A stretch of DNA of 64,000 nucleotides from Terriglobia bacterium (GTDB taxonomy: Bacteria; Acidobacteriota; Terriglobia; UBA7540), in contig JAIQGH010000004.1 in the NCBI GenBank assembly GCA_020072655.1, positions 1 to 64,000 on the forward strand, written 5' to 3'. A program made the translations under genes and the position numbers. Below, piece by piece: positions 12,927-55,518 of this stretch. How positions within the stretch are numbered: the stretch's first letter is position 1; every line of letters begins with the position of its first letter. Below the pieces are notes generated by a model. That model did no database searches and had not been told where the DNA came from. It saw nothing but the letters and a program-made list of their open reading frames with translations.

Positions 12927-17484
<4,558 letters not shown>

Positions 17485-17492
<8 letters not shown>

Positions 17493-40824: not shown

Positions 40825-41667
40825 ATGGAGAGTGAATCGGTGAAGACGTATCGAGTGGCATTTGGCGCCTTGTTGGCGATCCTCCTGGTCGTGGGACTGT
40901 ATTTCGTCAACCGTTACTGGATCGCCCCGGCGACGCAAAGGCATGCCGCCAAAGCCACAAGCGGGGACCGGCCGATGGCACCGGCCTTCAGCTTGACGGA
41001 TCTCAACGGCCGAAAAATCAATCTGGCTGACGAAAGAGGGAAGGTCGTGCTGCTGGATTTCTGGGCGACGTGGTGCGGCCCCTGCCAGTTGGAGATTCCC
41101 GGCTTCGTCAAGCTCCAGGAGCGCTACCGCGACCAGGGCCTCGTGGTGATCGGCGTCTCGATGGACGACAGCGTTGAGCCGGTGCGCGACTTTTACCGCG
41201 AGTTTAAGATGAACTATGCCGTGGCCATGGGCGACCAGCGGATTGGCGAGCTTTATGGCGGCATCATCGGCCTGCCCACAACCTTCCTCATCGGCCGCGA
41301 CGGACATATCTACGCCAAGCACACGGGCGCCACGGACATTTCGGTGTTTGAAGACGAGATCAAGACCCTGCTCGCCGCCGACGCCAATTCTGGGGTAGCA
41401 GAGCTCAGGCCGGTCGGCGGCACGCGGCCGCAAGAGAGGATCGAGCTGGGCGACCCGGCCGAGATCGACTCCGAAGTCCCGGGCGTCAATCTCTCCAAAC
41501 TGAACCCCCAGCAGGTGGCCATGTTCAAGAAGCAATTGGAAACCCTGCACTGCGATTGCGGGTGCAAGCTCACTATTCTGAGGTGCCGTCAGATTGACCG
41601 CGCCTGCAACATCAGTAGACGCGTCGCGCGGGAACAACTCGAAAAGTTTCTGAAACCCTCGGTGTAG
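40825..41667 (+). CDS. TlpA-like membrane-anchored thioredoxin with C-terminal CxCGC domain
   Basis: A 280-residue redox protein. Residues ~10-28 are an N-terminal membrane anchor, and residues ~50-190 a TlpA/ResA-type thioredoxin: PAFSLTDLNGRKINLADERG, WATWCGPCQLEIPGF with the active Cys84/Cys87, and the cis-Pro in GLPTTFLIGRDG. It should act outside the membrane as a reductant fed by CcdA. Unusually, residues ~228-280 form an extra domain: LSKLNPQQVAMFKKQLETLH, then CDCGC (Cys243, 245, 247), Cys254-Arg255 and Cys261, then NISRRVAREQLEKF. The same spacing recurs in the protein encoded at 42280. A link of ~40 polar residues separates the two domains. The start is an ATG at 40825. Confidence 0.9.
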   Translation: MESESVKTYRVAFGALLAILLVVGLYFVNRYWIAPATQRHAAKATSGDRPMAPAFSLTDLNGRKINLADERGKVVLLDFWATWCGPCQLEIPGFVKLQERYRDQGLVVIGVSMDDSVEPVRDFYREFKMNYAVAMGDQRIGELYGGIIGLPTTFLIGRDGHIYAKHTGATDISVFEDEIKTLLAADANSGVAELRPVGGTRPQERIELGDPAEIDSEVPGVNLSKLNPQQVAMFKKQLETLHCDCGCKLTILRCRQIDRACNISRRVAREQLEKFLKPSV

Positions 41668-41685
41668 CCGAGGTCCAATCCTCCT

Positions 41686-42264
41686 ATGAAAAATTCTCTT
41701 TGCAAGGTGTGGCTCGCATTCTGCGCAACTGTCTTGGCGGCCCTCGCGGCCGCAGTGGCCGCGCCACAGAACGCGCCGGAGGTTGTGGCGGTGAAAACCG
41801 TGCTCGCCGCGGACGGCGTTCATCCGGGCAAGACTCTCAAGGTCGCGGCCCTCGCCCACATTACCCCGGGCTATCACATCAACGACCACAAGCCGACGCT
41901 CGACTACCTGATCCCAACCGAGTGGAAGCTCGATTCTCCGAGCCCACTCAGCGTGGAGACGGTTGTCTATCCGAAAGGCGAGCTGAAGAAGTTCGCCTTC
42001 TCCGACAGGCAGCTCTCAGTATACGAAGGAGACCTGACGGTGGGAGCGTTGCTCCGGGTGGCGCGCGACGCCACGCCGGGGGCCTATACGCTCAAAGGGA
42101 AGTTTAGCTACCAGGCCTGCAACGACCATGCCTGCCTTCCGCCGAGGAGCTTGCCAGTAACGCTGACCGTCAACGTGGTGGGCCGCCGGACTCCTCTGAA
42201 GACTTTGAACCAAGACATCTTCAGCAGGTTGGAGGGACTCGAACCGGCGGGCAAGAACCTCTGA
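41686..42264 (+). CDS. Secreted DsbD alpha-domain-like protein
   Basis: A 192-residue exported protein with signal peptide MKNSLCKVWLAFCATVLAAL (cleavage near AVAAP). The mature part is like the N-terminal (alpha) domain of DsbD, an Ig-fold thiol module: VHPGKTLKVAALAHITPGYHIN, then YPKGELKKFAFSD, and the redox pair in GKFSYQACNDHACLPPRSL (Cys145 and Cys150, spacing as in DsbD-alpha, where the signature is YQ.C.....C.PP). In DsbD this domain hands electrons to periplasmic partners such as DsbC. Here it is a free protein and would be fed by CcdA or the TlpA protein. It starts 18 bases after the tlpA-like gene and ends 15 bases before the next. Confidence 0.87.
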   Translation: MKNSLCKVWLAFCATVLAALAAAVAAPQNAPEVVAVKTVLAADGVHPGKTLKVAALAHITPGYHINDHKPTLDYLIPTEWKLDSPSPLSVETVVYPKGELKKFAFSDRQLSVYEGDLTVGALLRVARDATPGAYTLKGKFSYQACNDHACLPPRSLPVTLTVNVVGRRTPLKTLNQDIFSRLEGLEPAGKNL

Positions 42265-42279
42265 GCCGCCGAAAAGCGG

Positions 42280-42705
42280 ATGGATCCCACACCCGCCAAC
42301 TCGACACCATCCGACGGACCCGCACCGGGCAAAGGCCCCACGCGCGGGGCCATCGCGATGGTCGTCCTGACACTGGGGCTGCTCGCGGCGCTGGTGTGGA
42401 CCTTCAAGCCGCGGCGAGTGCCGTTCACGCCGGCGCCGCTCGATTCTCTCCCCGCCGGTTGCCCGAAACTTGCGCGGGAATTCGTTCCGACCAATATCGC
42501 CGACTTCCCGAGTTCGCTTCTGGCTGGCCTCTCGCCCGACGAGAGGAGGCAGGCGATCTTCCGCCTGAACATGCAGCCTTGCCCGTGCGGCTGCAACTCC
42601 AGTGTGGCCCACTGTCGCATTACCTACCCGGATTGTGAGATCTCGCGCAAGCTGGCTGAGGAGATTGTCGCCAAGATCAAGGCTGAAAGGGTTCAACATC
42701 GGTGA
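42280..42705 (+). CDS. Membrane-anchored CxCGC-domain protein
   Basis: A 141-residue protein of unknown function. Residues ~1-22 are Pro/Ala/Gly-rich and ~23-41 (GAIAMVVLTLGLLAALVWT) a membrane anchor. The C-terminal ~65 residues contain LSPDERRQAIFRLNMQP, then CPCGC (Cys101, 103, 105), Cys112-Arg113 and Cys119, then EISRKLAEEIVAKIK. The Cys pattern CxCGC-x6-CR-x5-CxxSR is identical to that in the TlpA-like protein two genes upstream, and the flanking helix also aligns. It may bind metal or exchange disulfides. A further, lone Cys (PAGCPKLARE) is near residue 62. The ATG at 42280 is 15 bases after the upstream stop, so the genes form an operon. Confidence 0.85.
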   Translation: MDPTPANSTPSDGPAPGKGPTRGAIAMVVLTLGLLAALVWTFKPRRVPFTPAPLDSLPAGCPKLAREFVPTNIADFPSSLLAGLSPDERRQAIFRLNMQPCPCGCNSSVAHCRITYPDCEISRKLAEEIVAKIKAERVQHR

Positions 42706-42834
42706 TGGAACGCCGACGACAGAACCCGGCAATCATCAGGCCAGGATAGATTTGGACTTTACGCGGGCGGCTCGCGTGGGTAATATCAGCCCCACGATCG
42801 CGCTGGCATTACGCTCCGGGCTTGGGGAGCACGG

Positions 42835-43401
42835 ATGAAGATTGGTATTATTTCCGACACGCACGCGTACTTCGACCCGCGCCTGCCGGAGTTGTTGGCG
42901 GGCGTGGACGCCATCCTGCACGGAGGCGACGTCGGGTCGGTGGAGGTTCTGGACGAACTCGCTCAGATTGCCAAAGTCCATGCGGTCCGCGGCAACGTGG
43001 ACCCGCGTGAGCTCGAGCTCCCGCCCTCACTCTGCATGGGGTTCGAGAATGTCCAGGTGGAAGTGCATCACCAGTTGGCAATCCCCCAGTCCGAGCTCGA
43101 GGCCTGGTCGGACGGCGCGCTGCTGGTGAAGATGCGCCCGGAGCGCCGCGATGGTTTCCTGAAAACCTTCGGCGAGGCGACGCGCGTGGTGGTTTTCGGG
43201 CACAGCCACAAACCTTGCCTCTTGACGATGGGGCACAAGATCTTCTTCAACCCGGGCAGCGCCGGTCAGCAACGGTTCTCGCTACCACGCTGCTTCGGGA
43301 CACTGGAGATTTTCCCGCGCGGCGTCCGCGGCTCGCTGGTGAGTCTGGAGCGGCACAATGAGAGATTGCCCGCGAAAGTCTGGTTGCCGGTGGGAGGTTA
43401 G
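42835..43401 (+). CDS. YfcE/MJ0936-type metallophosphodiesterase
   Basis: A 188-residue calcineurin-like phosphoesterase with the metal-binding order D-x-H...GD...GN(x)D/H...GHSH: MKIGIISDTHAYFDPRL, ILHGGDVGSVEVL, VHAVRGNVDPRE, then VVFGHSHKPCLL and FFNPGSAGQQRFSLPR. Such enzymes have two-metal active sites and cleave phosphodiesters, with cyclic nucleotides in some members. The natural substrate is unknown. The start is an ATG just after GGGGAGCACGG. It lies 130 bases after the Cys-rich gene and five bases before a microprotein gene, so it may head its own unit. Confidence 0.9.
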   Translation: MKIGIISDTHAYFDPRLPELLAGVDAILHGGDVGSVEVLDELAQIAKVHAVRGNVDPRELELPPSLCMGFENVQVEVHHQLAIPQSELEAWSDGALLVKMRPERRDGFLKTFGEATRVVVFGHSHKPCLLTMGHKIFFNPGSAGQQRFSLPRCFGTLEIFPRGVRGSLVSLERHNERLPAKVWLPVGG

Positions 43402-43406
43402 CCACC

Positions 43407-43505
43407 ATGCTGACCCTAAAGAAAGTCAAACGCATCCTGGAAATTGTCGCGACCGTGGCCGCGGTGGCGGTGGTTTTGATCGAGAAGTTGGAGAAGAAAT
43501 CGTAG
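43407..43505 (+). CDS. 32-residue single-pass membrane microprotein
   Basis: Reading MLTLKKVKRILEIVATVAAV then AVVLIEKLEKKS, this tiny frame encodes a basic N-terminus, one hydrophobic helix and a charged C-terminus, a typical single-span microprotein. The ATG at 43407 is preceded by GGGAGGTTA with eight-base spacing, a strong ribosome site, and it starts five bases after the phosphodiesterase stop. Its TAG stop lies in a GTAGCG repeat. Translation is not proven; a partner, if any, may be the preceding enzyme. Confidence 0.6.
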   Translation: MLTLKKVKRILEIVATVAAVAVVLIEKLEKKS

Positions 43506-43554
43506 CGCGCCGCTTCAGCACGGCGTGCCGGGTCACCCGGTAACGGAGCGCTAC
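43502..43554. repeat. GTAGCG...CGCTAC repeat between convergent genes
   Basis: GTAGCGCGCCGCTTCAGCAC at the left and ACGGAGCGCTAC at the right form outer arms GTAGCGC/GCGCTAC around a hairpin GCCGGGTCACCCGGT. TAG at 43503-43505 ends the microprotein, and the minus-strand TAG at 43551-43553 ends gltX. Confidence 0.78.
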
Positions 43555-45020
43555 GCCCGCAGACGCTCGGCTGCCCTGAGCAGCCGCTCGACGACCCGCC
43601 TCCGCCCCAGCACGGCCATCACCTCAAACAATCCCGGGGCCACGGCTTGACCCGTCAGCGCCACCCGCGAAGCGTTGATGAGCAGGCCGGCTTTCACTGC
43701 CTTTTCTTCGGCTAGAAGGCGCAAAGCCTTCTCCGTTTCCTGACGATCGAACGGGTCAATGCCCGCGAGCCGCTCGGCGAGCGCCGTGAGCAAAGCCGGC
43801 AGAGAGGCGTCCTTCCAGAACTTCTTCGCCGCTTCCGGATCGTATTCGTACTCATCCGAAAAGAAGGCGCGAAACGCGCCGGAGAAATCTTTGAGGGTCC
43901 GGGTTCGCGATTGGAGCAATCGCACGGCGGCCTCGAATCGGCTTCGATCTTCGTCCTGAATTCTGAATTCCGAATTCTGAATTCTCTCTCCCACTGCGGG
44001 CCGCATTTGAGCGTTGTGCAGCTCCTCCTCCACCAGCGGCAGCAGCCGTTCGACGGGCAGCGTGCGGAGATATTCGGAGTTCATCCAGGCGAGTTTCTCG
44101 GGGTCGAAGACCGCGTTGGATTTCGAGATCGCGCTCAGCTCGAATTCCCTCACCATCTCCTCAATGGGCACGATTTCCTTGCCGCCCGGCGGCGTCCAGC
44201 CTAGCAGCGCCAGGAAATTCACCAGCGCCTCCGGCAGGATGCCCTGCTCGCGGTAAGCCTCAACGGAAGTGGCGCCGTGCCGCTTGGACAAGCGCGCGCG
44301 GTCCGGCCCGAGGATGAGCGGCAGGTGCGCGAAGACCGGTGTCGGCGCGCCGAGCGCCTGGTACATCAGGATTTGTTTGGGTGTATTCGAGAGGTGGTCG
44401 GCCCCGCGCACCACGTGGGTCACGCGCAGGTCGAGGTCATCGGCCACAACGCCCAGGTGATAGGTGGGGTGGCCGTCGGAGCGCAAGAGCACAAAATCTT
44501 CGATGTCGGTGTTCTCGATTTCAATGTGGCCGAAGACCTGATCGTCAAAGCTCGTCTTGCCCGCTTCAGGGACTCGGAAGCGGATGGCGAACGGCTCGCC
44601 CGCAGCGCGCCGACTCGCCCGCTCGGCCTCGGACAGATGGCGGCAGGCTCCGTCGTATTTCCAAGCGCGCCGCTCGGCCTCGGCTTGGGCGCGCCTCGCC
44701 TGAAGCTCTGCGACCGAACAGAAGCAAGCATAAGCGTGTCCAAGCCGTTCGAGTTCCGCGGCCATCGCGCGATATCGTGCGAGACGCTCCGACTGCAGGA
44801 TCGGCCCCTCGTCCCACGTGAGCCCCAGCCACTCCATGCTGCGCAGGATGGCCGTAGTCAACTCAGGTTTCGAGCGATCCACGTCGGTATCTTCAATGCG
44901 CAGGATGAACACGCCGCCGTGATGCCGCGCGAAGAGCCAGTTGTAGAGCGCCGTGCGCGCTCCTCCCACGTGCAGATAGCCGGTGGGCGAGGGGGCGAAG
45001 CGGACGCGGATGCCAGTCAT
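43551..45020 (-). CDS. gltX: Glutamyl-tRNA synthetase
   Basis: A ~489-residue class I synthetase that charges tRNA-Glu. The HIGH-type motif is APSPTGYLHVGGARTAL, IEDTDVDRS follows, and the KMSKS-equivalent is ARLSKRHGATSVEAYRE. The C-terminal anticodon-binding domain includes LKDFSGAFRAFFSDEYEYD and ends AERLRA. Near residue 350 an in-frame low-complexity stretch (ERIQNSEFRIQDEDR) is encoded by a repeated GAATTCTGAATTCC tract, which breaks the usual alignment between two helices. An ATG at 45023 and one at 45020 are adjacent; I chose the second. The stop codon lies in the 43502-43554 repeat. The TonB gene upstream is on the same strand, 153 bases away. Confidence 0.95.
   Translation of the reverse strand: MTGIRVRFAPSPTGYLHVGGARTALYNWLFARHHGGVFILRIEDTDVDRSKPELTTAILRSMEWLGLTWDEGPILQSERLARYRAMAAELERLGHAYACFCSVAELQARRAQAEAERRAWKYDGACRHLSEAERASRRAAGEPFAIRFRVPEAGKTSFDDQVFGHIEIENTDIEDFVLLRSDGHPTYHLGVVADDLDLRVTHVVRGADHLSNTPKQILMYQALGAPTPVFAHLPLILGPDRARLSKRHGATSVEAYREQGILPEALVNFLALLGWTPPGGKEIVPIEEMVREFELSAISKSNAVFDPEKLAWMNSEYLRTLPVERLLPLVEEELHNAQMRPAVGERIQNSEFRIQDEDRSRFEAAVRLLQSRTRTLKDFSGAFRAFFSDEYEYDPEAAKKFWKDASLPALLTALAERLAGIDPFDRQETEKALRLLAEEKAVKAGLLINASRVALTGQAVAPGLFEVMAVLGRRRVVERLLRAAERLRA
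43958..43985. repeat. GAATTC tandem repeat inside gltX
   Basis: The 28-base tract carries four GAATTCY-type units in a row (GAATTCTGAATTCCGAATTC, then TGAATTCT). It is in frame and adds about nine residues to GltX. Confidence 0.8.
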
Positions 45021-45172
45021 CAATTTGTCCTGCTGACGATCAGGGGCCGACGGCGCGGATTAATGCTGCGCGCCCAAGCCCCCTCATCGTATGCCATCCA
45101 CCAGGGGAAAGGAAGGCGGCTGCGTGGCCTGCCGAACAGCAACCTCACGGGCGAAGTCAGCCGGATCGAAGC

Positions 45173-47392
45173 TCAGAAATGAAAACGGTAGCGCAGTTCC
45201 ACCGCGACCTGGCGCGGCTGCGCGAAATGCGTCCCCCCGAACGTGTTGCTGTTATCCAGCAGATAGCGCCGGTTCATCAAATTCAAAGCCTGCACTTGCA
45301 GCGACCACGACTCGCCGAACGACTTCCCGAGCGCTAAGTCGGCGGTGGTATGCGAGGGCAAGTGCGCCGGCCCATCGCCATTCAGAAACCCCGAGCCATA
45401 GGCCACCACCAGGGAAGCCCAAATCTTTCGCGGCAGATCGACGTACAGGTTGGCGCTCAACGTGTCGCGCTGGTCGTGGTCGAGAAAGTAGTAGCCGGCA
45501 TTTTCCGGTGGCGCGAAGTCCGTCAAGCCGCCGCTCACTCCTCCCTGCGCCTCGACGTACTGGCGCGAGTAAGCGAGACGCGTGCTCGCTCGCCCGAAAA
45601 GGCGAGGGGATCGAAGGCTTGCTTCCCAGCCACGAATGCGCGCGCGCTCCAGCGTCAACGGGAAGAAGATGTTGGAATTGCCGAGCGCGTCGTGGTCGAA
45701 GAAATTCTTGGCGCCGGTTCGGAAGTTGGTGATTTCCGCGAGCCAGCCGCGGGCGGGAATAGTCAAGCCGAATTCGTGTTGTTCGTCCCTCTCGCCGCGC
45801 AGGGGGATGAAACCGAACCCTTGAGCGAGGGCCACGTCCAGAAGTGGACCCGAGACGGTCGTGAGCGGTGGCGCCTGGTAGAAGCGGCCGTAATATCCAT
45901 GCAGCGTCCAGCCCAGTTTGGGCAGGCGCAACGCGGCTCCCAGGCGAGGATCGGCGGCAGTCTCAGTGATCGCACCGGAAAACCGTGTCAGGCGCACACC
46001 GCCGTTGAGCGTCAGCCAAGGTGTGAGCCGGTACTGGTCTTCGACGAACAGCGCACCGACGTTTCCCCAGACCCGCTCGCGTTGGGCCAGAGAGGCCAAA
46101 CTGGGGTCGGTCGAAGTCAAGCTCAGAAATGTGTTTTCCCGCTCCGCGAAGCCGGTAACTCCCACCTTCGCATTGTGGCTGCCGGTGGTCACCGCGAGCG
46201 TGATATTCGCGCCGACGTAATGGGAGGATTGGTCGTTCTCGGGAATCACCGGACGGTCCCCGGCTAGTCCCAGGTAATCCGCGCGATTGAAGTGGTAGTA
46301 CGGCGAGACGGTGAACAACAGGCCGTGGCTCGCGGTGCGGACCCAGGAGAAATTCACAAAGGCGTCGCGCTCGCGGTCCAAATCGCGGATGCCGGCCGAC
46401 TGGTCGGCGGGAGTATTCGGAATCTGGTAATGGTCTCGCCGCAGCGAGGTGACCAGCCGGAGTTGATCGCGCGGCGTGGCGTTGAAGATCAACGAAGCGA
46501 ATCCTCCGACGCCGCTGGTGAGATCGTGAACAACTTCGGAAACCGGCGTCTCCAGCCCCAGGTCCGAGCGGTTGGCGTTCACACTGGCGTAATACGCGAA
46601 CCGCTCCGTATGGCTCCCGAGGCTGAGCTGGTCGTTGGTGGTATGGAAGTTGCCGTAATTCGCCACCAGTTCGGCTTCCTGGTTACGCTCGAAGCCGGAG
46701 CGCGCGACCACATTGAAGACGCCGAAGGTGCGGTCGCCGTATTCAGCCGAATAGCCGCCGCGCTGAACCTCGATATAGTCGATGTCCTTGGGATCGAATT
46801 GCGGTCCCACGTTGGAGGCGATGCTGGTATTGGGGACCGGAACCCCGTCCACCAACCAGCTCACTTGGTGTCCGCCGCGGATGTGGAGCTGGTCGTGAAC
46901 GATATAGGCGCCGGGGACAAAGTCGGTGATCATGGCCAGGCTGTTGGTCTGACTCGCGCCCGGCGTGCGCGCGATTTGCGCGCGATTCACCACGCTTTGG
47001 GAGGCCGAAGACTCAAAGGGAATGGCTTCGGGCGCCGCAGAGACAGTGACCGACTGCCTCACCGTCTCGATCTCGAGAAGGAAATGCAGAATTGGCGCGC
47101 CGCCCGATGCCACGTCGACCGTCATCTCGCCGGGGCGAAATCCTTCGGCAGTGACGGAAACGGAGTATTCGCCGAGCGGCACCGCGGTAAAATCGAATTC
47201 GCCATCGGCATTGGTGCGCGTCTGCTGAGACCAGTCCGAAGAGCGCGCGCGCAGCACGGCCTGCGCCCCAGCGATGGGCCGGTGCAGCGGGTCGTGAACG
47301 ATCCCGCGGACACCACCAAAAATGGTCGCCCCAGCGGGCGGGGCGAGGAAGACGCCTAGCGCGAAGCATCCAAGCAATATCCAAAATCTCAT
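45173..47392 (-). CDS. TonB-dependent outer-membrane receptor with N-terminal carboxypeptidase-like domain
   Basis: A 739-residue receptor. MRFWILLGCFALGVFLAPPA is a signal peptide (ATG 47392, TTGGAGGCTCGCC upstream). Residues ~25-105 are a carboxypeptidase-regulatory-like domain (GGVRGIVHDPLHRPIAGAQA, TNADGEFDFTAVPLGEYSVS), then a plug domain (VVNRAQIARTPGASQTNSLA, DQLHIRGGHQVSWLVDG) and a 22-stranded barrel ending VELRYRFHF with a C-terminal Phe. It takes up a substrate using TonB energy. The N-terminal extension is the layout common in acidobacteria. The gene upstream encodes a Cys/His-rich secreted protein, so metal uptake is a guess. The wider frame to 47638 adds only non-coding residues. 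Confidence 0.92.
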   Translation of the reverse strand: MRFWILLGCFALGVFLAPPAGATIFGGVRGIVHDPLHRPIAGAQAVLRARSSDWSQQTRTNADGEFDFTAVPLGEYSVSVTAEGFRPGEMTVDVASGGAPILHFLLEIETVRQSVTVSAAPEAIPFESSASQSVVNRAQIARTPGASQTNSLAMITDFVPGAYIVHDQLHIRGGHQVSWLVDGVPVPNTSIASNVGPQFDPKDIDYIEVQRGGYSAEYGDRTFGVFNVVARSGFERNQEAELVANYGNFHTTNDQLSLGSHTERFAYYASVNANRSDLGLETPVSEVVHDLTSGVGGFASLIFNATPRDQLRLVTSLRRDHYQIPNTPADQSAGIRDLDRERDAFVNFSWVRTASHGLLFTVSPYYHFNRADYLGLAGDRPVIPENDQSSHYVGANITLAVTTGSHNAKVGVTGFAERENTFLSLTSTDPSLASLAQRERVWGNVGALFVEDQYRLTPWLTLNGGVRLTRFSGAITETAADPRLGAALRLPKLGWTLHGYYGRFYQAPPLTTVSGPLLDVALAQGFGFIPLRGERDEQHEFGLTIPARGWLAEITNFRTGAKNFFDHDALGNSNIFFPLTLERARIRGWEASLRSPRLFGRASTRLAYSRQYVEAQGGVSGGLTDFAPPENAGYYFLDHDQRDTLSANLYVDLPRKIWASLVVAYGSGFLNGDGPAHLPSHTTADLALGKSFGESWSLQVQALNLMNRRYLLDNSNTFGGTHFAQPRQVAVELRYRFHF

Positions 47393-47529
47393 GGCGAGCC
47401 TCCAACAGCTATAAGTTTCTCTGACCGCCGCCGCGCTGGCGAGCACCGGGTTTCTCGGGGGCAGATGCGGAAATTTCCGCCCGGCGCCAGCCGCGAGGCG
47501 TGGTGTAAGTGGAAATTGATCTCTGAGGC

Positions 47530-47904
47530 TCAGACCGCGAAGCGCGGAGGTTGCTCGGGGGGATAGGAATGACCAGGGAGCAGAAGAAAGATTGGCGCGT
47601 GGACGTTCCACCGCGCGGAGACAGGCGGGATGCGACATGAACAGTCCGCGGGGACGATGAGAACATTCAAATCGTGCAAATGGATTGCGGCGTCTGCCGG
47701 TTCAATCCCGCAGTGACCGCCATTCGCCATGGCGCACATCGGCGCTTTGCCCCCGCCGTGGACATGGCCTTTGCACGAGCACGCAGCAGGCGGGCACGCG
47801 CAAGACTCCAGCGGCGCCTTCACCGACATCCAGCGGAGCGATGGAATGAGGAGCGATGGCACGAGGAGCGATGCCGTGACAAAAATGGCCACAATAAAAC
47901 GCAT
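47530..47904 (-). CDS. Secreted Cys/His-rich protein upstream of the TonB receptor
   Basis: A 124-residue exported protein of no family I recognise. MRFIVAIFVTASLLVPSLLI is a signal-like helix. The middle is dense in metal ligands: ESCACPPAACSCKGHVHGGG then MCAMANGGHCGIE, with CSC again near residue 88 (nine Cys and several His and Met in ~65 residues). The pattern of CxC, HxH and GGHCG suggests binding of copper or a similar soft metal. It ends in a Pro-rich LLPGHSYPPEQPPRF tail with another hydrophobic patch (APIFLLLPG). It lies 137 bases upstream of the TonB gene on the same strand, and a promoter with TTGCCC/TAAAAT precedes it, so the two are a likely unit. Confidence 0.65.
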   Translation of the reverse strand: MRFIVAIFVTASLLVPSLLIPSLRWMSVKAPLESCACPPAACSCKGHVHGGGKAPMCAMANGGHCGIEPADAAIHLHDLNVLIVPADCSCRIPPVSARWNVHAPIFLLLPGHSYPPEQPPRFAV

Positions 47905-47946
47905 AAGGATTAGCTGCTCTGTCAGCCCTGGAAGCCCTGAACAACC

Positions 47947-47975
47947 ATTTTACACCGGTAACGAGCATGGGGCAA
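47947..47975 (-). promoter_or_regulatory. Promoter for the Cys/His-rich protein and TonB unit
   Basis: On the minus strand TTGCCC, a 17-base spacer and TAAAAT, with the ATG at 47904 about 42 bases downstream. Confidence 0.55.
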
Positions 47976-47991
47976 CCTGTCGCGCGGTTAG

Positions 47992-48036
47992 GTAGCGCCG
48001 GGCGGAATTTGTCCCGACGGCGTCGGGAGCCCGGCA
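47992..48036. repeat. GTAGCG-type repeat, diverged
   Basis: GTAGCGCCGGGCGGAATTTG then GTCCCGACGGCGTCGGGAGC and CCGGC. Arms GCCGGGC/GCCCGGC are recognisable. Confidence 0.5.
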
Positions 48037-48386
48037 CACGCCGCCGAGTCAATACATTGCAGGTGGGAGGTCAAGGTGTTAGGGGAGGAACGCGCCGAGA
48101 CGAAGGTCCCCTGGCGGCAGGGATAGGAGGATCCCGCCGCCAAGGGCGACAGCGCCACGACGCGTTTGGAGGCAGGTTAAGGAATGGCGCTGTTCAAGGC
48201 ACACTCGCCTTCCCCTTTTACTCGGCAGAAGCGGCGAGATTCTTGAAGACTTTTGTGGGGACGCCGTCAGGGGAGGAGAAAGCTGCTCAAGCGGGCGCAT
48301 AGGGCATTCCCAAATGCGTTCGCGACATTATCCCTGCCCTGGCGCACCAAGGCTTTAGGAGCCGCGTTATCGCTGCCATAAATCTG

Positions 48387-48458
48387 ATTTGTCCAAAGTT
48401 TTTTTATCACCGCCAAAAAAACTATTTCCTTGACGCAAATTTGTCCAAATTTTAATGT
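48387..48458 (+). promoter_or_regulatory. Porin/ammonium-module promoter with repeated operator-like site
   Basis: The sequence ATTTGTCCAAA occurs exactly twice, at 48387-48397 and 48439-48449, 52 bases apart (about five helical turns). The second copy, extended to ATTTGTCCAAAT, lies between TTGACG (48430-48435) and TAATGT (48453-48458), which form a sigma-70-type promoter with a 17-base spacer. A protein bound there would block polymerase, and two sites on the same face could allow looping. No ntrC/sigma-54 GG-N10-GC element is convincing. Confidence 0.6.
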
Positions 48459-48543
48459 CGAAATTGCTGGTTGTTACGGTCACCGGAACCGCGGGAAACG
48501 CGGCCCGGGATAGACCTCGGGGGAGAAAGCGACATGCAACAAC

Positions 48544-49920
48544 ATGAAGGTTCTTCGTCCAGTTCTTCGTTTAGTACTTGGAACGTGTCTTGCGTGCCTG
48601 ATTTCTCCGACGCTCAGGGCTCAGGATCAAGCGTCTGACTCCCAGGCTGATATCTCCAAGCGGGTAGAGCAACTTCAAAAGGAAGTTGAAGCGCTGCGCG
48701 CCGAGCTGGCCAAGATGAAAGACCAGCAGGCGGCACCTGCGTCTGCGGCCAGTCCCGCCCCGACTCAAGCCGCCCTATCTGCGGCGCCCCCGGCTCCCGC
48801 CACGGCGGCAGAGCCAGCTCCCGCCAGTGGAACCCCCGCCACGCCCGCGGAGCCGGCTTCTGCGTCCGGTGGCAATCCGCTCGCGGGGCTTCTCGCCCAT
48901 ACGAACGTCACGGGTTTTGTTGACACCTACTACGGATACAACTTCAACCAGCCGAACAACCGTACAACTAACTTCCGGGCGTTTGACGGGCCGAACAATC
49001 AGTTCTCGCTGAACATGATTGAACTGATTTTCGACAAGGCCCCCGACGCCAACAACAGCCGCTTGGGATACCACCTGTCGTTCGGTTATGGCAATGCCAT
49101 GAACGTGGTGAACTCAACGGAGCCCGGAGGGCTGGGGTTCGCGCAGTACCTGAAAGAAGGTTATTTGTCGTATTTGGCTCCCGTGGGCAAGGGATTGCAG
49201 TTCGATGTGGGCAAGTTCGTGACCCCACACGGCGAGGAAGTGATTGAGAGCAAGGACAATTGGAATTACTCGCGGGGCCTGCTCTTCACCTATGCCATTC
49301 CGTTCTACCACTTTGGCCTGCGCGCCAAATACGCCTTCAACAGCAAGTTCGCTTTGACGGGATACCTGACGAACGGGTGGAACAACATCGTTGACAACAA
49401 CACCGGCAAGACCGGCGGGGTCACGCTGGCCTGGAACCCGAGCAAGAAGGTCTCGATCGTCCAGAACTATATGGCCGGACCTGAAATGCCCAACACCAAC
49501 GCCCATACACGCCAATTGAGCGACACGGTCGTCTCAATTTCTCCGACCTCGAAGCTCACCTTGGTCGTGAATTACGACTACGGCCGGGGTGATCAACCGC
49601 TCGGCTTCCTGCAGCCGGTTTATTGGACCGGCGTGGCGGGTTACGTCCACTATGCGTTCACGGACAGCCTGGCCTGGACGACGCGTTATGAATATTACAA
49701 TGACCGTGACGGGTTCACGACCGGCACACCCCTCGGCACACACTTCAACGAAGTCACGGAAACGTTTGAAAAGCGGCTGCACAAGAACCTGATTGCCCGG
49801 CTGGAATATCGCTACGACAACTCCAACCACCCCGTTTACACGAAGGGGAGCTCTCCGGTAACGGGTCAGAGCACGGTGGCCGCCGGGTTCATCTACGCGT
49901 TTGACTGGAGGGAATTTTAG
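48544..49920 (+). CDS. Porin (OmpL/BBP2-like beta barrel) with N-terminal coiled coil
   Basis: A 458-residue outer-membrane porin. MKVLRPVLRLVLGTCLACLI is a signal peptide, residues ~34-60 (DISKRVEQLQKEVEALRAEL) a periplasmic coiled coil, ~62-112 a Pro/Ala linker, and ~115-458 a barrel of amphipathic strands (GFVDTYYGYNFNQPNN, FSLNMIELIFDKAPDA, RLGYHLSFGYGNAM, RLEYRYDNSN, AGFIYAFDWREF) ending in Phe. The layout matches the beta-barrel porin-2 family. Given its place as first gene before amt, diffusion of ammonium or small nitrogen compounds into the periplasm is likely but not shown. The ATG at 48544 follows CATGCAACAAC and has no strong ribosome site; GGGGGAG lies ~20 bases upstream. Confidence 0.88.
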   Translation: MKVLRPVLRLVLGTCLACLISPTLRAQDQASDSQADISKRVEQLQKEVEALRAELAKMKDQQAAPASAASPAPTQAALSAAPPAPATAAEPAPASGTPATPAEPASASGGNPLAGLLAHTNVTGFVDTYYGYNFNQPNNRTTNFRAFDGPNNQFSLNMIELIFDKAPDANNSRLGYHLSFGYGNAMNVVNSTEPGGLGFAQYLKEGYLSYLAPVGKGLQFDVGKFVTPHGEEVIESKDNWNYSRGLLFTYAIPFYHFGLRAKYAFNSKFALTGYLTNGWNNIVDNNTGKTGGVTLAWNPSKKVSIVQNYMAGPEMPNTNAHTRQLSDTVVSISPTSKLTLVVNYDYGRGDQPLGFLQPVYWTGVAGYVHYAFTDSLAWTTRYEYYNDRDGFTTGTPLGTHFNEVTETFEKRLHKNLIARLEYRYDNSNHPVYTKGSSPVTGQSTVAAGFIYAFDWREF

Positions 49921-50119
49921 CAGCTCCCACCAGCCTATCGACGTCGGGAAAGTCTGAAGTTCAGGGCAAATTCACAATTCAGGATGGAAAGCGGAGATCG
50001 CGTACTTTTTGCGGGATGGCGGCTTGGTTCTCGAATCAAACACCCCCAATGACCAGCGGCCAAGCCGCTCCCGCGCCAGGGTCTGAGCACGTTGTGGAGA
50101 GACAAGGAAGGAGCGCCCC

Positions 50120-50320
50120 ATGGCAGCAAATCGGAAACAAGGAAGTTACCTGGCGGAGTTCATCGTGGCCTTTACGATGTTTCCCGCTGGGCTAGTCTTG
50201 ATCACTTCGGCGAGTCGAGGCATCGGCACCCTGCTCACCATCGTCGGGCTGGGCCTGCTTTTGCACTCGGCAGTAGGGCTCTATCGAATCAAGAAGCTGG
50301 AATTCTCCCGCGGGAGTTAA
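50120..50320 (+). CDS. Small membrane protein (66 aa), ammonium module
   Basis: A 66-residue protein with two hydrophobic helices: AEFIVAFTMFPAGLVLITSA and GIGTLLTIVGLGLLLHSAVGLY, ended by a basic RIKKLEFSRGS. The ATG at 50120 follows AAGGAAGGAG with good spacing. No family is recognised. It sits 199 bases after the porin and 131 bases before another tiny membrane protein, ahead of amt. Together with the 60- and 61-residue neighbours it may be an accessory subunit of the transporter or a membrane regulator; this is inference from position and shape. Confidence 0.7.
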   Translation: MAANRKQGSYLAEFIVAFTMFPAGLVLITSASRGIGTLLTIVGLGLLLHSAVGLYRIKKLEFSRGS

Positions 50321-50451
50321 GCAAGGTGGATGAGCGGGTGAAATGGACACCGGGGTCCACAAGCGAATGACGATCGTATTCGGGAATTCGGATTAGGCAA
50401 GGCGGCGCGTGGAAACGCGCCTGAGTCTCACGACTACCGAAGGAGAGAAGC

Positions 50452-50634
50452 ATGAAAATCACGGGTCTATTGCTCGCTATCGTGGGATGGCTGATACCCG
50501 TTCTGGGTCTCAGTTTGACTTCCTCGAACGCCGCGCGGCTTACGCTGTGCCTGATTGGGATCGCGGTGTGCTTGGTGGGGATTCTGGGGGTTTTGAACAG
50601 AGCCTTCCTGCAGAATGCAATCTGGAAGCAGTGA
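50452..50634 (+). CDS. Small membrane protein (60 aa) directly before amt
   Basis: A 60-residue, very hydrophobic protein: MKITGLLLAIVGWLIPVLGL then LTLCLIGIAVCLVGILGVLN form two helices, with short hydrophilic ends (RAFLQNAIWKQ). AAGGAGAGAAGC precedes the ATG at 50452, a strong ribosome site. It ends 65 bases before amt. It differs in sequence from the 66-residue neighbour but has the same two-helix shape. No family assigned. Confidence 0.7.
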   Translation: MKITGLLLAIVGWLIPVLGLSLTSSNAARLTLCLIGIAVCLVGILGVLNRAFLQNAIWKQ

Positions 50635-50699
50635 AGTAGAAGCAAACGTCGGAGACCAGTAGGGGAAGTGAAGTGAATGCCGAAAACCAGGAGAATCAC

Positions 50700-52424
50700 A
50701 TGCGACTTCGCAAGAGACTGACACGCTGTCTTCCCGCAGCAAGCATTTTGCTGGTTCTGTGTGGGATACCCGCATGGCCACAGAACCAAACTCCCCCCGC
50801 AACTCCGAGCCAGGCCGCAACCCCGCCTGCTGCGGCCGCCGCGCCGAGCCTCACCGCGCCGCTCGCCCTGAAAGATGCGAATCCCCCGTCGTCCGATGAT
50901 CTGGCCAAGGGCGATCCGGGCGGGACGCTGACCGGGACCGTCAACGATGTGGCGGTGTCGGACGCCAAGAAGGGCCTCACGCTCGGCGACGCGGTGAACC
51001 AGATTGGCCAAAACAAAGTGGCGATCAACTTCGTGTGGACGCTCGTCGCCGGCTTCCTGGTGATGTTCATGCAGGCGGGGTTCGCCATCGTGGAGACCGG
51101 CCTGTGCCGGGCCAAGAACGCCAGCCACACGATGATGATGAACTTCATGGTTTACGGGTTCGGGCTGTTCGCCTACTGGGTCTGCGGCTTTGCCTTTCAG
51201 ATGGGCGGCGTGGGAGCCACGGCCAACCTCGGCGGGACGGCCCCGCTGAGTTCGGAATACACCGTCAATTTCCTCGGGAAAACCTGGGGCCTTTTCGGGA
51301 CGCACGGGTTCTTCCTGACCCAGGGCGGCACCTACGACGTAGCGGTGATGGTCCTGTTCCTTTTCCAAATGGTGTTCATGGACACCGCCACCACCATCGT
51401 GACGGGCGCGGCCGCGGAGCGCTGGAAGTACGTAGCCTTCGCGATCTCAACGTTCTTCCTCGGCGCCATCACCTATCCATTCTTTGCCAACTGGGCCTGG
51501 GGAGGCGGATGGCTCTCCCAACTCGGCGCAAATTTCGGCCTGGGACACGGGTACTGTGACTTCGCCGGTTCGGGTGTGGTGCACGCCGTGGGTGGGCTGA
51601 CGGGACTCGCCGTCGCCATGCTCGTCGGGCCACGCCTGGGCAAATACAACCGCAACGGGTCTCCCAATGCGATTCCCGGCCACGACATGGTGCTGGTCCT
51701 GACCGGCTGCTTCATTCTGGCGTTTGGATGGTTCGGCTTCAATCCCGGAAGCACGCTGGGCGCGTCCGGGAACGGCGCCCTGCGAATCGGCTCCATCGCG
51801 GTCAACACCATGCTCGCGGGGTGCACGGGTTCTTTTGGCGCGCTTCTCTATATGTGGATCCGCTACGGGAAGCCGGACGCCTCGATGTCTGGCAACGGAC
51901 TCCTGGCCGGTCTGGTGGCGATTACCGCTCCCAGCGGCTTCGTCAACACAGTGGGCGCGGCCATCATCGGCCTCGTCGCCGGGGTCCTGGTTTGCCTCAG
52001 CGTTGAGTTCTTTGACCGCGTGGCGAAGGTCGATGATCCCGTGGGAGCCATTTCGGTGCACGGCGCGAATGGCCTTTGGGGCGTTATCTCCGTGGGCCTG
52101 TTTGCCGACGGGAAATCGAACTATGGCGGAAGCTGGAACGGCGTCCCGGGCTCGGTCACGGGCCTGTTCTACGGCGATCCAGGACAACTGATTGCCCAGT
52201 TGGTTGGCGTCGCAACCTTACTGGGTTTTGTGTTCGCAGCGTCCTTCGTCTTCAACTGGGTTGTGGACGTGCTCGTCGGACAGCGCGTATCCCCTGAAAC
52301 CGAACTGGAAGGACTGGATGTTCCTGAGATGGGCGCGCTGGGTTATCCGGAATTCGTCTTGAAGGTTCACCGCGAGCAGGCTCCCATCACGGGTATCGGA
52401 GCCGCTGTGGAAGCGACGACCTAA
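50700..52424 (+). CDS. amt: Ammonium transporter Amt
   Basis: A 574-residue Amt/MEP/Rh channel. An N-terminal signal-like segment (MRLRKRLTRCLPAASILLVL) and ~70 residues of Pro/Ala linker precede the core, which is longer than the usual ~430 residues. Core motifs: FVWTLVAGFLVMFMQAGFA, NASHTMMMNF, TTIVTGAAAERWKY, DFAGSGVVHAVGG with Asp287 and pore His295, and the twin His454 in VHGANGLWGVI. It conducts ammonium inward and is blocked by P-II proteins when nitrogen is plentiful; a P-II gene lies 2.2 kb downstream. The ATG at 50700 follows CAGGAG; a GTG at 50673 is an alternative. The C-terminal tail (PETELEGLDVPEMGALGYPE) is the conserved cytoplasmic P-II contact region. Confidence 0.95.
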   Translation: MRLRKRLTRCLPAASILLVLCGIPAWPQNQTPPATPSQAATPPAAAAAPSLTAPLALKDANPPSSDDLAKGDPGGTLTGTVNDVAVSDAKKGLTLGDAVNQIGQNKVAINFVWTLVAGFLVMFMQAGFAIVETGLCRAKNASHTMMMNFMVYGFGLFAYWVCGFAFQMGGVGATANLGGTAPLSSEYTVNFLGKTWGLFGTHGFFLTQGGTYDVAVMVLFLFQMVFMDTATTIVTGAAAERWKYVAFAISTFFLGAITYPFFANWAWGGGWLSQLGANFGLGHGYCDFAGSGVVHAVGGLTGLAVAMLVGPRLGKYNRNGSPNAIPGHDMVLVLTGCFILAFGWFGFNPGSTLGASGNGALRIGSIAVNTMLAGCTGSFGALLYMWIRYGKPDASMSGNGLLAGLVAITAPSGFVNTVGAAIIGLVAGVLVCLSVEFFDRVAKVDDPVGAISVHGANGLWGVISVGLFADGKSNYGGSWNGVPGSVTGLFYGDPGQLIAQLVGVATLLGFVFAASFVFNWVVDVLVGQRVSPETELEGLDVPEMGALGYPEFVLKVHREQAPITGIGAAVEATT

Positions 52425-52445
52425 AGGAAAAGAGGAGGGTTATCA

Positions 52446-53021
52446 GTGGCGAGCTCGATATTTCCTTTGACCTTTGATGTGCAGGAGATCCGGCCTGAAG
52501 CCCGGACCTCCGCGATTGTTCCTCGCGGAACTGCCCCCCTCAGCGCCGAGGCGCTGAATTCTTTTCACGAAGGGATGGAATTGCTGGGCCTGGGAAGGCC
52601 GGGCGAGGCCATCGGCAGGCTGGAAAGCGCTGTCGCTCGCGCCCCGGAATATGCCGATGGTTTCGTCGGGCTGGGCATGGCGTATGCCATGGACAGCCGG
52701 GTGTACCCGGCCCTCGACAGCTTCGAGAAGGCGGCGGAATTGGATCCTGCCAACTTCTTCGCGCACTTCAAGCTGGCGCAGTTTTGCTTTAAGTTGCGAA
52801 TTCCGAAGAAAGGCTACGAAGAGGCCGAACTCGCCCTGCGATGCGCGACCTCGCTCGAAGAGCGACGGCTGGTGGCGCAGATCTTGAAGGAAGAGCGTCA
52901 GCGCGAGGCGGGGGGAGTAAAGCGGCCGACCTGGAATAAGCCGTTTTCGAGAATCTGGACGCGCGTGGGATTCGGTCTTTTGCTTGCGGCTTGCCTGATC
53001 CTGGTTCTCCACGTGAGGTGA
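52446..53021 (+). CDS. Tail-anchored TPR protein
   Basis: A 191-residue protein starting at a GTG (52446) after AGGAGGGTTATCA. Residues ~36-140 are about three TPR-like helix pairs: NSFHEGMELLGLGRPGEAIG, GFVGLGMAYAMDSRVYPALDS and FAHFKLAQFCFKLRIPKKGY. A C-terminal membrane helix (RVGFGLLLAACLILVLHVR) anchors it, with the TPR on the cytoplasmic side, so it is a likely scaffold. It follows amt by 22 bases and is on the same strand. No specific family is recognised, and the interacting partner is unknown. Confidence 0.8.
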   Translation: MASSIFPLTFDVQEIRPEARTSAIVPRGTAPLSAEALNSFHEGMELLGLGRPGEAIGRLESAVARAPEYADGFVGLGMAYAMDSRVYPALDSFEKAAELDPANFFAHFKLAQFCFKLRIPKKGYEEAELALRCATSLEERRLVAQILKEERQREAGGVKRPTWNKPFSRIWTRVGFGLLLAACLILVLHVR

Positions 53022-53062
53022 CTTCGCCCGGCCTCCAACTCAGCGCCGCAGGGAGAGGATTT

Positions 53063-53248
53063 ATGCCGGTGACAAAAACGATTGTGAATCTGCTCTGGCA
53101 ACAACGTGTCGTCCTGGCTTGCGCGCTCACGGCGGCCGTGTTTCTCGTGGGAGTGTGGCATGCGCCCCTGATCCCGGTGGTGATCGGATGCATGGCGGCG
53201 TTATCGCTCAAGCTGATCAGCGCAAGACGCAAGCCGCCGCGTGATTAG
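53063..53248 (+). CDS. Small membrane protein (61 aa), before the antiporter
   Basis: A 61-residue protein: MPVTKTIVNLLWQQRVVLAC then two hydrophobic runs (ALTAAVFLVGVWHAPLIPVV, GCMAALSLKLISARR) and a basic end. The ATG at 53063 has GGGAGAGGATTT upstream. It lies 41 bases after the TPR gene. It is the third tiny two-helix protein in this module; the sequence resembles neither of the others, and no family is assigned. Confidence 0.6.
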   Translation: MPVTKTIVNLLWQQRVVLACALTAAVFLVGVWHAPLIPVVIGCMAALSLKLISARRKPPRD

Positions 53249-53313
53249 GCTCGGGCGCGAAGGCTTTCCTCGGGTGCAAAGACAGTGGCGGGGGAATACC
53301 CGGACCAATTTCC

Positions 53314-54591
53314 ATGGATGTCTCGCTTCAAATCCTGCTCGTTGTGGCTGTCCTGATCCTCCTGGCGAAGGCGGTAGGTGGATTGTGCCACAAGTTCAGT
53401 ATGCCGCCGGTGCTGGGCGAGCTGCTGGCAGGTGTTATTCTCGGCCCCACCCTGCTCAATATCTGGAAATTCCCGTGGCTTGCAGGCAGCCAAGCCGTGG
53501 CGGGCAATCATGCCATTTCCCTTCCCGCCGCGGTACACGTCTTAGCGCAGATCGGCGTGGTCGTTCTGATGTTTCTTGCGGGGCTGGAAACCGACACGAA
53601 GCTGATGAAGGCCACGGCAGCCCCGGCATTCTGGGCGGCCGCCGGCGGAGTGGTGTTGCCCCTGGCAGGCGGCGCGGCGCTGGTGCACGAGCTGGGATTC
53701 GGCTGGGCGGAGTCGGTGTTCATCGGCACCGTGCTCACGGCGACCAGCGTTTCGATCACCGCGCAGACGCTGATGAACATGAACCGGCTGAGGTCGAAGG
53801 CCGGAACCACCATCCTGGGCGCCGCGGTGATCGACGACGTGCTGGGACTGATCGTTCTCTCCCTCGTGATTGCGGTGGAGTTTCAGCGCGCGCCCAACGC
53901 CGCGTCGATGTGGAGCGGCACGGGCTGGGTCGCGGCGCGAGTCGTCATCTTTGGCGTGCTGACCTTCCTTTTCGGGCCTCGCCTGATCCGCTGGGCCTTC
54001 CGGTACGCCCGCCACTTCCAGGGGCCGCACATCTCGGTGGCGGTGGGCCTGGGCATCGCCTTCATCTTCGCGTTTGCGGCGGAAGCGGGAGGTGGCATGG
54101 CAGCGATCACCGGCTCCTACCTGGCGGGACTCTTCATGGCTGCAAGCCCGGCGCGGGACGAAATTGTCGGCGATGTGCGGTCGATGGCCAACGCGTTCTT
54201 CGGGCCGCTTTTCTTCTGCTCCGTCGGGCTGGAAATGAACGGGCGGAACTTGGGCGGGCAGCTCAACCTCTTCCTGGTCGTGATGGCCATCGCCGTCGTG
54301 GGCAAGGTGGCCGGGTGCGGGGGCGCCGCCCTCGCTCAGGGCTTCAGCCGGCGGGATTCGCTGGTGGTGGGTGTCGGGATGATTCCGCGCGGTGAAGTCG
54401 GATTGATTACGGCCAGCATTGGCTGGACCGCGGGCGTCATCGGAGGAGATGTCTATTCGGTCATGGTGATCGTGGTTTTGGCAACCACGCTGATTAGCCC
54501 CGTGCTCTTACGGTTCTCCCTGCCTGCCGACGATCGAGGTGAACTCGTCGAGAGCGCAACTGTCGCCGCGAACGTGGCGGAAGGATCGTAA
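53314..54591 (+). CDS. CPA2-family cation:proton antiporter
   Basis: A 425-residue antiporter with ~12 hydrophobic helices. The core Asp pair lies in GAAVIDDVLGLIVLSLV (Asp174, Asp175), the electrogenic DD signature of CPA2 (as in NapA and KefC-type proteins). FSMPPVLGELLAGVILGPTL and FLAGLETDTKLMKATAAPA match the N-terminal region. There is no C-terminal RCK/TrkA-N domain, so it is of the short Na+/H+ or K+/H+ type. It could balance charge or pH during ammonium uptake, or be controlled by the P-II protein encoded 59 bases downstream; neither is shown. The ATG at 53314 has no strong ribosome site, only a weak GGGGGAA about 16 bases upstream. Confidence 0.9.
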   Translation: MDVSLQILLVVAVLILLAKAVGGLCHKFSMPPVLGELLAGVILGPTLLNIWKFPWLAGSQAVAGNHAISLPAAVHVLAQIGVVVLMFLAGLETDTKLMKATAAPAFWAAAGGVVLPLAGGAALVHELGFGWAESVFIGTVLTATSVSITAQTLMNMNRLRSKAGTTILGAAVIDDVLGLIVLSLVIAVEFQRAPNAASMWSGTGWVAARVVIFGVLTFLFGPRLIRWAFRYARHFQGPHISVAVGLGIAFIFAFAAEAGGGMAAITGSYLAGLFMAASPARDEIVGDVRSMANAFFGPLFFCSVGLEMNGRNLGGQLNLFLVVMAIAVVGKVAGCGGAALAQGFSRRDSLVVGVGMIPRGEVGLITASIGWTAGVIGGDVYSVMVIVVLATTLISPVLLRFSLPADDRGELVESATVAANVAEGS

Positions 54592-54650
54592 GGGCGGTCT
54601 GGCTGCTAGAGATGGCTCTGCGCTCCATCAAATGTGAGGGATAAACCGAT

Positions 54651-54989
54651 ATGACGAAACTCGAAGCGATCATTCAACCCGCGCGGCTCGACTCCGTCCG
54701 GGAAGCACTCCAGGCCGTCGGCGTGGCGGGGGTGACGGTTTGGGAAGTGCGCGGACACGGACGCCAAAAAGGCCACACCGAGGTCTATCGTGGCAATGAA
54801 TACACCGTCGACCTCTTGCCCAAAATCAAGATTGAAGCCGTCATGCCGAATCACTTGGTGGAACCGGCGGTCGCGGCTGTCATCAAATCCGCGAAAACCG
54901 GGAAGATTGGCGATGGCAAAATCTTCCTGACCAAGCTGGACGAGGCTATCCGGATTCGCAATGAAGAACGGGGCGAGGCGGCGCTATAG
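54651..54989 (+). CDS. glnB: Nitrogen regulatory protein P-II
   Basis: A 112-residue canonical P-II trimer-forming protein. MTKLEAIIQPARLDSVREAL is the start of the fold, GRQKGHTEVYRGNEYTVDLL is signature 1 with the T-loop uridylylation site Tyr51, and TGKIGDGKIF is signature 2, the ATP-binding region. It senses ADP/ATP and 2-oxoglutarate and controls Amt, GlnE or other targets. Here it is the last gene of the module. GlnK normally sits next to amt; this one is separated by a TPR protein, a tiny membrane protein and an antiporter. GAGGGATAAACCG lies before the ATG. Confidence 0.95.
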   Translation: MTKLEAIIQPARLDSVREALQAVGVAGVTVWEVRGHGRQKGHTEVYRGNEYTVDLLPKIKIEAVMPNHLVEPAVAAVIKSAKTGKIGDGKIFLTKLDEAIRIRNEERGEAAL

Positions 54990-55518
54990 CCACTCGGTCT
55001 TCGCAGGCCTTTCCGAGGCTTCGCCATCCCGGCCGAGGTCAGCGTGCACGAGCTTCCCTGTGTTCTCTCGCTCGTTCGGGGCCGGGCGTGTGGATAAACA
55101 AGATAACGTCGTTGACCATCCCCTTCCCGCCTCTCGCGTTGCGGCAGAAGGAGTTAGCAATTCGGTCGGCGTCCGAGGCGGTCCCGCCAGGGTTTTGGCC
55201 TGCGGGCGGACCTTTATTACACTGTTAACAAACGACAAGTAACACCTCAATCCGGTCCTCCGCGCTAACCTTCGGCGGTCACGGGTCGCCAGAAAAATGG
55301 CGCACGGCCAAGGATAATTCTTGACGTGCGCAGCCCGGTTGGGTATAGTGCCTATAATTTACGCGGCAATCGGATCGTCGGGAGGGACGGTTCGAGAGCC
55401 GCTGGTTTCAGTTCCAGCAAGGATCACCCATCGATAAAGCGCCAGCGAGGGGTCAGGCGAGCAAGAACGCCGAGGAAGAGGCGGCAGAATTCGCCCTGTC
55501 CGCCTGGAGAGCGCTCGG
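54990..55518. other. Intergenic region with promoter and leader
   Basis: The first ~330 bases hold no gene, repeat or terminator I can support. A promoter at 55321-55349 follows, then a ~165-base untranslated leader with several short hairpins, such as GGTTCGAGAGCC and CTGGTTTCAGTTCCAG. It does not match a cyclic di-GMP riboswitch in the parts I recognise. Confidence 0.4.
55321..55349 (+). promoter_or_regulatory. Promoter for the GGDEF/HD-GYP gene
   Basis: TTGACG (55321-55326), exactly 17 bases, and TATAGT (55344-55349). A TATAAT at 55353-55358 is too far downstream to pair with the same -35 box. Confidence 0.65.

Follow-up and report, generated by a model that had tools for sequence, protein, structure and literature searches.

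A conserved unit upstream of sigma70-type promoters, a probable regulatory element of nitrogen and amino-acid assimilation genes in Terriglobia

Introduction

The sequence lying upstream of the porin-amt gene cluster in the window (the whole stretch of 64,000 nucleotides analysed here) is, as judged from its conservation, probably the upstream portion of a regulated promoter of sigma70 type that belongs to a nitrogen and amino-acid assimilation regulon of Terriglobia (Acidobacteriota). The element is a unit of about 30 bp, TTTAT-N7-A(T/G)AAAA..CTATT, placed at one fixed distance from the -35 hexamer and present once before gltB and twice, 37 bp apart, before the porin-amt module. In relatives the unit, TTTAT-N7-ATAAAAACTATTnATTT, is found before gltB, glnA, amt, amino-acid permease, glnD, thrB-like and leuA genes, and it is this set of targets that marks it as a nitrogen/amino-acid regulon element.

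Acidobacteriota are abundant in soil, and a literature search found no paper on the control of nitrogen genes in this phylum, nor on this element. The control of glutamate synthase by a LysR activator is already known (GltC, according to the accessible part of PMC6794564). The analysis offers a defined DNA element, a list of targets in which each gene can be checked in turn and a single candidate regulator, making the control of nitrogen genes directly testable in cultured Terriglobia.

Results

Two units upstream of the porin promoter

The promoter region of the window contains the following features:

48367 to 48397, + strand: unit 1, formed by TTAT-N7-ATAA (48367-48381) and ATTTGTCCAAA (48387-48397), free of gaps in 10 aligned promoters
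48404 to 48429, + strand: unit 2, formed by TTAT (48404-48407)-N7-AAAA (48415-48418) and CTATTT (48422-48427)
48430 to 48435, + strand: -35 hexamer TTGACG, its place kept in 10/10 promoters (TTTGAC or TTGGAC)
48439 to 48449, + strand: second copy of ATTTGTCCAAA, within the 17-bp spacer, unconserved and taken as chance
48453 to 48458, + strand: -10 hexamer TAATGT, kept at the 17-bp spacing

Ten porin promoters of the family can be aligned without gaps over a block of about 70 bp, which consists of two direct repeats 37 bp apart (TTATC-N6-AnAAA...ATTTG / TTTTTTATCnncgCCAgAAAAnnnATTTG). The first repeat ends in GGCCAA and the second runs into the -35 (TTTGAC), the conserved repeat covering 31-68 bp overall, upstream of and into the -35. 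In these 10 promoters the information per column amounts to 1.26 and 1.39 bits in the units and 0.43 bits in the spacer. Unit 2, 37 bp downstream of unit 1, abuts the -35.

The first-pass annotation had placed a TTGACG-17-TAATGT promoter here and a regulatory site ahead of the porin-amt module, and both proposals are upheld: the promoter keeps its position in the aligned orthologues, with the -35 and -10 separated by about 17 bp as in sigma70-type promoters, and the site is conserved in the porin promoters of the family. A unit model of 39 sequences (R3) matches the promoter at 48401-48460 with 35.0 bits, the E value being 4.6e-8 for the genome and 6.8e-10 for the window, and an independent model (R2) matches it at 48364-48456 with E 1.7e-8. 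On the core of unit 1 (48367-48382) R3 gives the third-best match of the window, which at E 1.5 is weak alone. Directly after the -10, GCTGGT (48466-48471) is kept in many porin promoters of the family; other Terriglobia carry CTGGTCAC or GCTGGCAGC at that position, which is a candidate initial-transcript element.

The genes behind the element are:

48544 to 49920, + strand: outer-membrane porin, BBP2 (PF07642, Pfam E 3.5e-85), the first gene downstream of the element
50120 to 50320, + strand: ORF of 66 aa, situated between porin and amt and without a Pfam match
50452 to 50634, + strand: ORF of 60 aa, likewise between porin and amt and without a Pfam match
50673 to 52424, + strand: amt, ammonium transporter (PF00909, E 2.1e-104; TIGR00836 above cut-off)
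52446 to 53021, + strand: TPR protein of the same cluster (Pfam)
53314 to 54591, + strand: sodium/hydrogen exchanger of the same cluster (PF00999, E 1.8e-62)
54651 to 54989, + strand: P-II nitrogen regulatory protein (PF00543, E 1.1e-28)

A genome survey of Acidobacteria describes amtB in an operon with glnK, and the words LysR and NtrC are absent from its main text (PMC5900883). The 66- and 60-aa ORFs are both conserved in G003 (L004/L087), and the 66-aa ORF is the first gene behind a second copy of the element in G003 and G020.

The repeated word ATTTGTCCAAA

Two exact copies of ATTTGTCCAAA occur on the + strand at 48387-48397 and 48439-48449, and the second falls inside the 17-base spacer between TTGACG (48430-48435) and TAATGT (48453-48458), both as first annotated. 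The further reading given to them, a repressor operator pair 52 bp apart and facing one side of the helix, is extremely improbable. In its favour, the repeat is exact and copy 2 lies within a perfect 7-2-7 palindrome in the promoter spacer, AAATTTG-TC-CAAATTT, the palindromy of copy 1 being limited to TTTG-TC-CAAA. However, copy 2 is kept in 0/9 of the other aligned promoters, where 2-7 of its 11 positions survive, and exact 11-mer repeats at a distance of up to 100 bp occur 34 times in the 64-kb window (first-order Markov shuffles: mean 4.0, maximum 12), so that exact repetition alone is weak evidence. Beyond the two copies the whole 4.36-Mb assembly holds no further exact ATTTGTCCAAA; allowing one mismatch there are 24 places versus 20 for the reversed control, and the word itself is thus not enriched.

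Copy 1 behaves differently in the alignment, with 7-11 of 11 positions kept across 10 orthologous porin promoters (consensus ATTTGGCCAA). Conservation upstream of orthologues therefore stands for copy 1 (10 promoters) and fails for copy 2, which is confined to this genome. Judged by these alignments the 52-bp pair is already refuted as a conserved feature and we dropped it as a functional unit, since copy 2 is not conserved; the operator pair is not supported, the conserved repeat being a different one, 37 bp apart and upstream of the -35. The repeated word is half real, copy 1 forming part of a conserved switch sequence and copy 2 being a coincidence. The excess of exact 11-mer repeats (34 against a mean of 4.0) was noted for the window, in the region 41489-56523.

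A second site before gltB

The window carries one more site, upstream of the glutamate synthase genes:

12773 to 12827, + strand: second element site, before gltB, TTAT-CCCGACC-ATAAAAACTTCTAATTTCACA-N17-GAAAAT
12855 to 17492, + strand: gltB, glutamate synthase large subunit, 74% identity to the query over residues 7-400, start codon uncertain
17473 to 18900, + strand: gltD, behind gltB, assigned by sequence

Here the unit is present once, as TTATCCCGACCATAAAAACTTCTAATTTCACA at 12773, followed by 17 bases and GAAAAT. R3 matches 12771-12829 with E 1.0e-6 in the genome and 1.5e-8 in the window, this sequence being itself in the R3 training set. Two strong R3 sites exist in the own genome, porin-amt (48401) and gltB (12771), both within the window, and the next match has E 0.37. 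A regular pattern gives 2 matches against 0.03 expected, which serves as a description and not as a test, having been written after both sites were seen.

The strongest test is that of the gltB promoters with a porin-trained matrix, since porin and gltB promoters are unrelated sequences. Trained on porin unit 2 only and run with 200 shuffles per locus, the matrix gives the own gltB site 20.6 bits (0/200 shuffles as good), and the gltB site TTAT-N7-ATAA is found in 14 of the 17 scored family loci (at most 2/200 shuffles). The loci outside this group are L272, with 3/200 shuffles, and L254 and L256, which failed; three more gltB loci were left unscored, their gene start not being found. In family f10, an R2-type porin-trained matrix is passed by only 7 of 20 gltB promoters, most of which show ATCGAAATTCTGnATTGTACT.

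The element in relatives

Of 61 genomes, 25 have a porin match with an E value of 1e-20 or lower. The model R1 was made from 10 porin promoters, with L014 excluded for alignment gaps, and 33 of the 61 genomes contain an R1 match at E ≤ 1. At E ≤ 1e-4 there are 29 matches, 10 of them training sequences, whose first gene is a BBP2 porin in 21 cases, an amino-acid permease in three, the 66-aa ORF followed by amt in two, glnA in two and in the remaining one (G018) an ORF cut by the contig end. Several of the R1 porins are followed by glnA, three by Pfam and three by sequence only. Glutamine synthetase was ruled out for the gene after the L092 porin, which Pfam assigns to dynamin, and in G019 the LysR gene adjoining a weak R1 match (L081, E 0.08) was put down to chance, as the match leads to a carboxypeptidase-like/TonB-type ORF and to no nitrogen gene. 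A regular-expression search upstream of the remaining distant porins of the 25 genomes revealed no element.

A genome scan with porins gave 67 loci, including Terriglobia, Acidobacteriales and Candidatus Sulfotelmatobacter. The porin promoters of other Terriglobia present a diverged form, TTTATC-n4-CCATAAATTTAATTTnTCAAA..GAT..AGAAGAACTATGcgTTGGACT, with ATAA and TTAT half-sites at 11-bp steps. R2 was built from 21 of these diverged promoters, without any sequence of the window's family; over 299 genomes of the class, with 13 candidates scored per genome, it reaches E ≤ 0.001 in 27, a count from which the frequency of the element cannot be read because the scan is insensitive.

Of the 39 family genomes searched with R3, 33 contain a match at E ≤ 1; L098 and L099, which stand outside its alignment, are both matched. 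The threshold E ≤ 0.01 yields 69 matches in the 39 genomes, 38 of which are training sequences. By first gene these are 26 gltB, 20 porin, five permease, two glnA, two amt, two PP2C phosphatase with Ser/Thr kinase, two HAD protein, two glcD, one thrB-like, one glnD and six unassigned. The 31 non-training matches comprise 14 gltB, two porin, two permease, one glnD, one thrB-like, two glcD, two PP2C-kinase, two HAD and five unassigned, of which two lie at contig ends. Slightly above the threshold (E 0.019-0.023) stand two thrB-like genes, one of them followed by ilvB, and leuA. The thrB-like proteins fall below their family cut-offs, glnD reaches its own, and ilvB and leuA exceed theirs. The first-pass annotation had suggested a search upstream of porin, amt, glnA and gltB in related genomes, and sites of this type do precede gltB, glnA and amt there.

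Some individual loci deserve mention. A glcD-like glycolate oxidase gene lies behind the element in G188 and G035 (L333, L353), which would connect nitrogen with glycolate or photorespiration-type metabolism. The pair of PP2C phosphatase and Ser/Thr kinase is found behind it in G036 and G031 (L340, L344), and at L086 a PP2C gene also comes after the permease. At L343 (G027:C142) a gltB-type promoter (E 5.0e-6) has no gltB behind it and a DUF4097 protein follows 650 bases on, which may reflect rearrangement or misassembly.

LysR-A as a candidate reader

A LysR protein is matched at E ≤ 1e-25 in 58 of 61 genomes, mostly once and with 47-52% identity in the family. This protein, LysR-A, is present in all 14 other Terriglobia tested. 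The own genome gives four LysR matches; two of them resemble the opposite ends of one LysR-A gene cut by a contig break. LysR-A adjoins gltB or gltBD in 9 of the 14 other Terriglobia genomes, aspartate kinase in 8/8 family loci read and also in the own genome, and thrB, proC and lysC in G226; its neighbours hence come from the same pathways as the targets of the element. In G250 (L108) a second LysR-A copy lies directly upstream of the porin promoter, the first being beside gltB, and at L105 a close relative (82%) occupies the same place. Among the 38 porin loci that offer 1 kb or more of upstream sequence, four have a LysR gene directly upstream, and these genes come from three lineages. In the own genome and its family no LysR gene lies beside the porin or gltB.

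The LysR-A neighbourhoods hold no R2 or R3 match and hence show no sign of self-control, and in two genomes, G022 (90% complete) and G018 (80%), the element is present and no LysR-A orthologue was found. Clustering of the ORFs at the 38 porin loci revealed no adjacent transcription factor common to all. LysR proteins of two further lineages sit upstream of the porin promoter at L130/L202 and L093, their nearest NCBIfam models being GltC and AlsR, below cut-off.

The site itself has the T-N11-A dyad of LysR regulators, as TTAT-N7-ATAA in the gltB units and TTAT-N7-AnAA in porin unit 2. A main LysR site near -65 with a second near -35 was not found, the dyad centres lying, from the assumed start, near -91 and -54 (porin) and near -54 (gltB). 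The 37-bp step corresponds to 3.5 helical turns, which is no whole number and was counted against our best explanation.

Discussion

Its fixed position immediately before the -35 makes the unit look more like the site of an activator than of a repressor. In the mechanism that we envisage, a protein would bind the unit and recruit or help RNA polymerase upon shortage of nitrogen (glutamine or glutamate), and the porin, the ammonium channel and GOGAT would then be made together. The signal is probably nitrogen supply, given gltB, glnA, amt and glnD among the targets; some R3 targets (glcD, PP2C-kinase, HAD) are not plainly nitrogen genes and were counted against it. The reader of the element could be LysR-A, a conserved LysR-type regulator that would act like GltC, an assignment that we place at somewhat under even chances. 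More tentative still is the wider model, in which Terriglobia would use LysR-A as one LysR-type global regulator at TTAT-N7-ATAA sigma70 promoters in place of NtrC, covering ammonium uptake, glutamine and glutamate synthesis and part of amino-acid synthesis, with promoters of a single unit or of double units 37 bp apart giving a graded response.

A regulator of another kind, such as an Lrp/AsnC-type or OmpR-type protein, may read the element while LysR-A merely lies near gltB, which we hold to be rather unlikely. In enterobacteria the targets of Lrp form a set of the gltB, ilv, leu and thr type, which that of the element resembles, and the tandem units ending at the -35 would also fit activators of the OmpR/PhoB type; moreover, the LysR-A loci show no match to the element. 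Against such a reader, the sites of OmpR-type proteins are direct repeats, whereas TTAT-N7-ATAA forms a dyad in 11-bp steps, and LysR-A is found beside gltB in 9 of 14 genomes, with a second copy beside a porin promoter.

The idea that a repressor operator overlaps the promoter is less probable again, and we consider it quite unlikely. Unit 2 touches the -35, where a bound protein could block the polymerase, and many regulators both activate and repress, but the unit stops at the upstream edge of the -35 in all promoters read; the -10 and the spacer, the latter unconserved at 0.43 bits per column, are left free. As for an A/T-rich upstream element of strong promoters (UP or curved DNA) working with no regulator, the A/T tracts at steps near 11 bp and the position of all sites upstream of the -35 would agree with it. 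It is nevertheless very improbable in view of the invariant letters of TTAT and ATAA, with their TpA steps, of the GC-rich 7-base gap of constant length, and of strong matches that stand before a narrow gene set, two of them in the own genome.

An activator of LysR type, the candidate proposed here, can be compared with several known systems. The first-pass annotation suspected that the nitrogen regulator might not be NtrC, and in agreement with this 0 proteins of the genome reach the NtrC equivalog cut-off (TIGR01818: 67 matches, the best with 458.2 bits versus 558.6), which is a strict one, passed by 1/14 control genomes. The target genes are of the type controlled by NtrC and sigma54 (amt and glnA, with P-II next door), whereas the promoters here have a conserved sigma70-type -35/-10. 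The -24/-12 pattern TGGCAC-N5-TTGC, allowed at most two mismatches, is absent from 48350-48550; a copy with one mismatch lies at 48579, inside the porin gene, and the window as a whole contains 60 matches against 70.6 expected. NAC, the nitrogen assimilation control protein, is of LysR type and acts on sigma70 promoters of nitrogen genes, an arrangement to which candidate LysR-A would correspond, but LysR-A of L108 scores 79.8 bits versus the NAC cut-off of 309.

GltC is the LysR-type activator of the glutamate synthase genes gltAB of Bacillus subtilis, as set out in the part of PMC6794564 available. The likeness consists in a LysR gene that adjoins the glutamate synthase genes, divergently in L238, L239 and L247, and in gltB as target. 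In contrast, LysR-A of L108 reaches 130.6 and 82.9 bits versus NCBIfam cut-offs of 350 and 300, the LysR-A of the window's family lies beside aspartate kinase and not gltB, and the regulon also includes porin-amt, glnA, permease and amino-acid genes. The DNA sites resemble LysR-type sites such as those of CynR, which are described in the accessible part of PMC5002191 as 15-bp inverted repeats ATAA-n7-TTAT; the half-site letters, the 7-base gap, the T-N11-A form and the several repeats upstream of the promoter are shared with that account. The main dyad here is instead TTAT-N7-ATAA, in units every 37 bp, and its centres, from the assumed start, lie near -91 and -54 and not at the -66, -44 and -34 given there for CynR.
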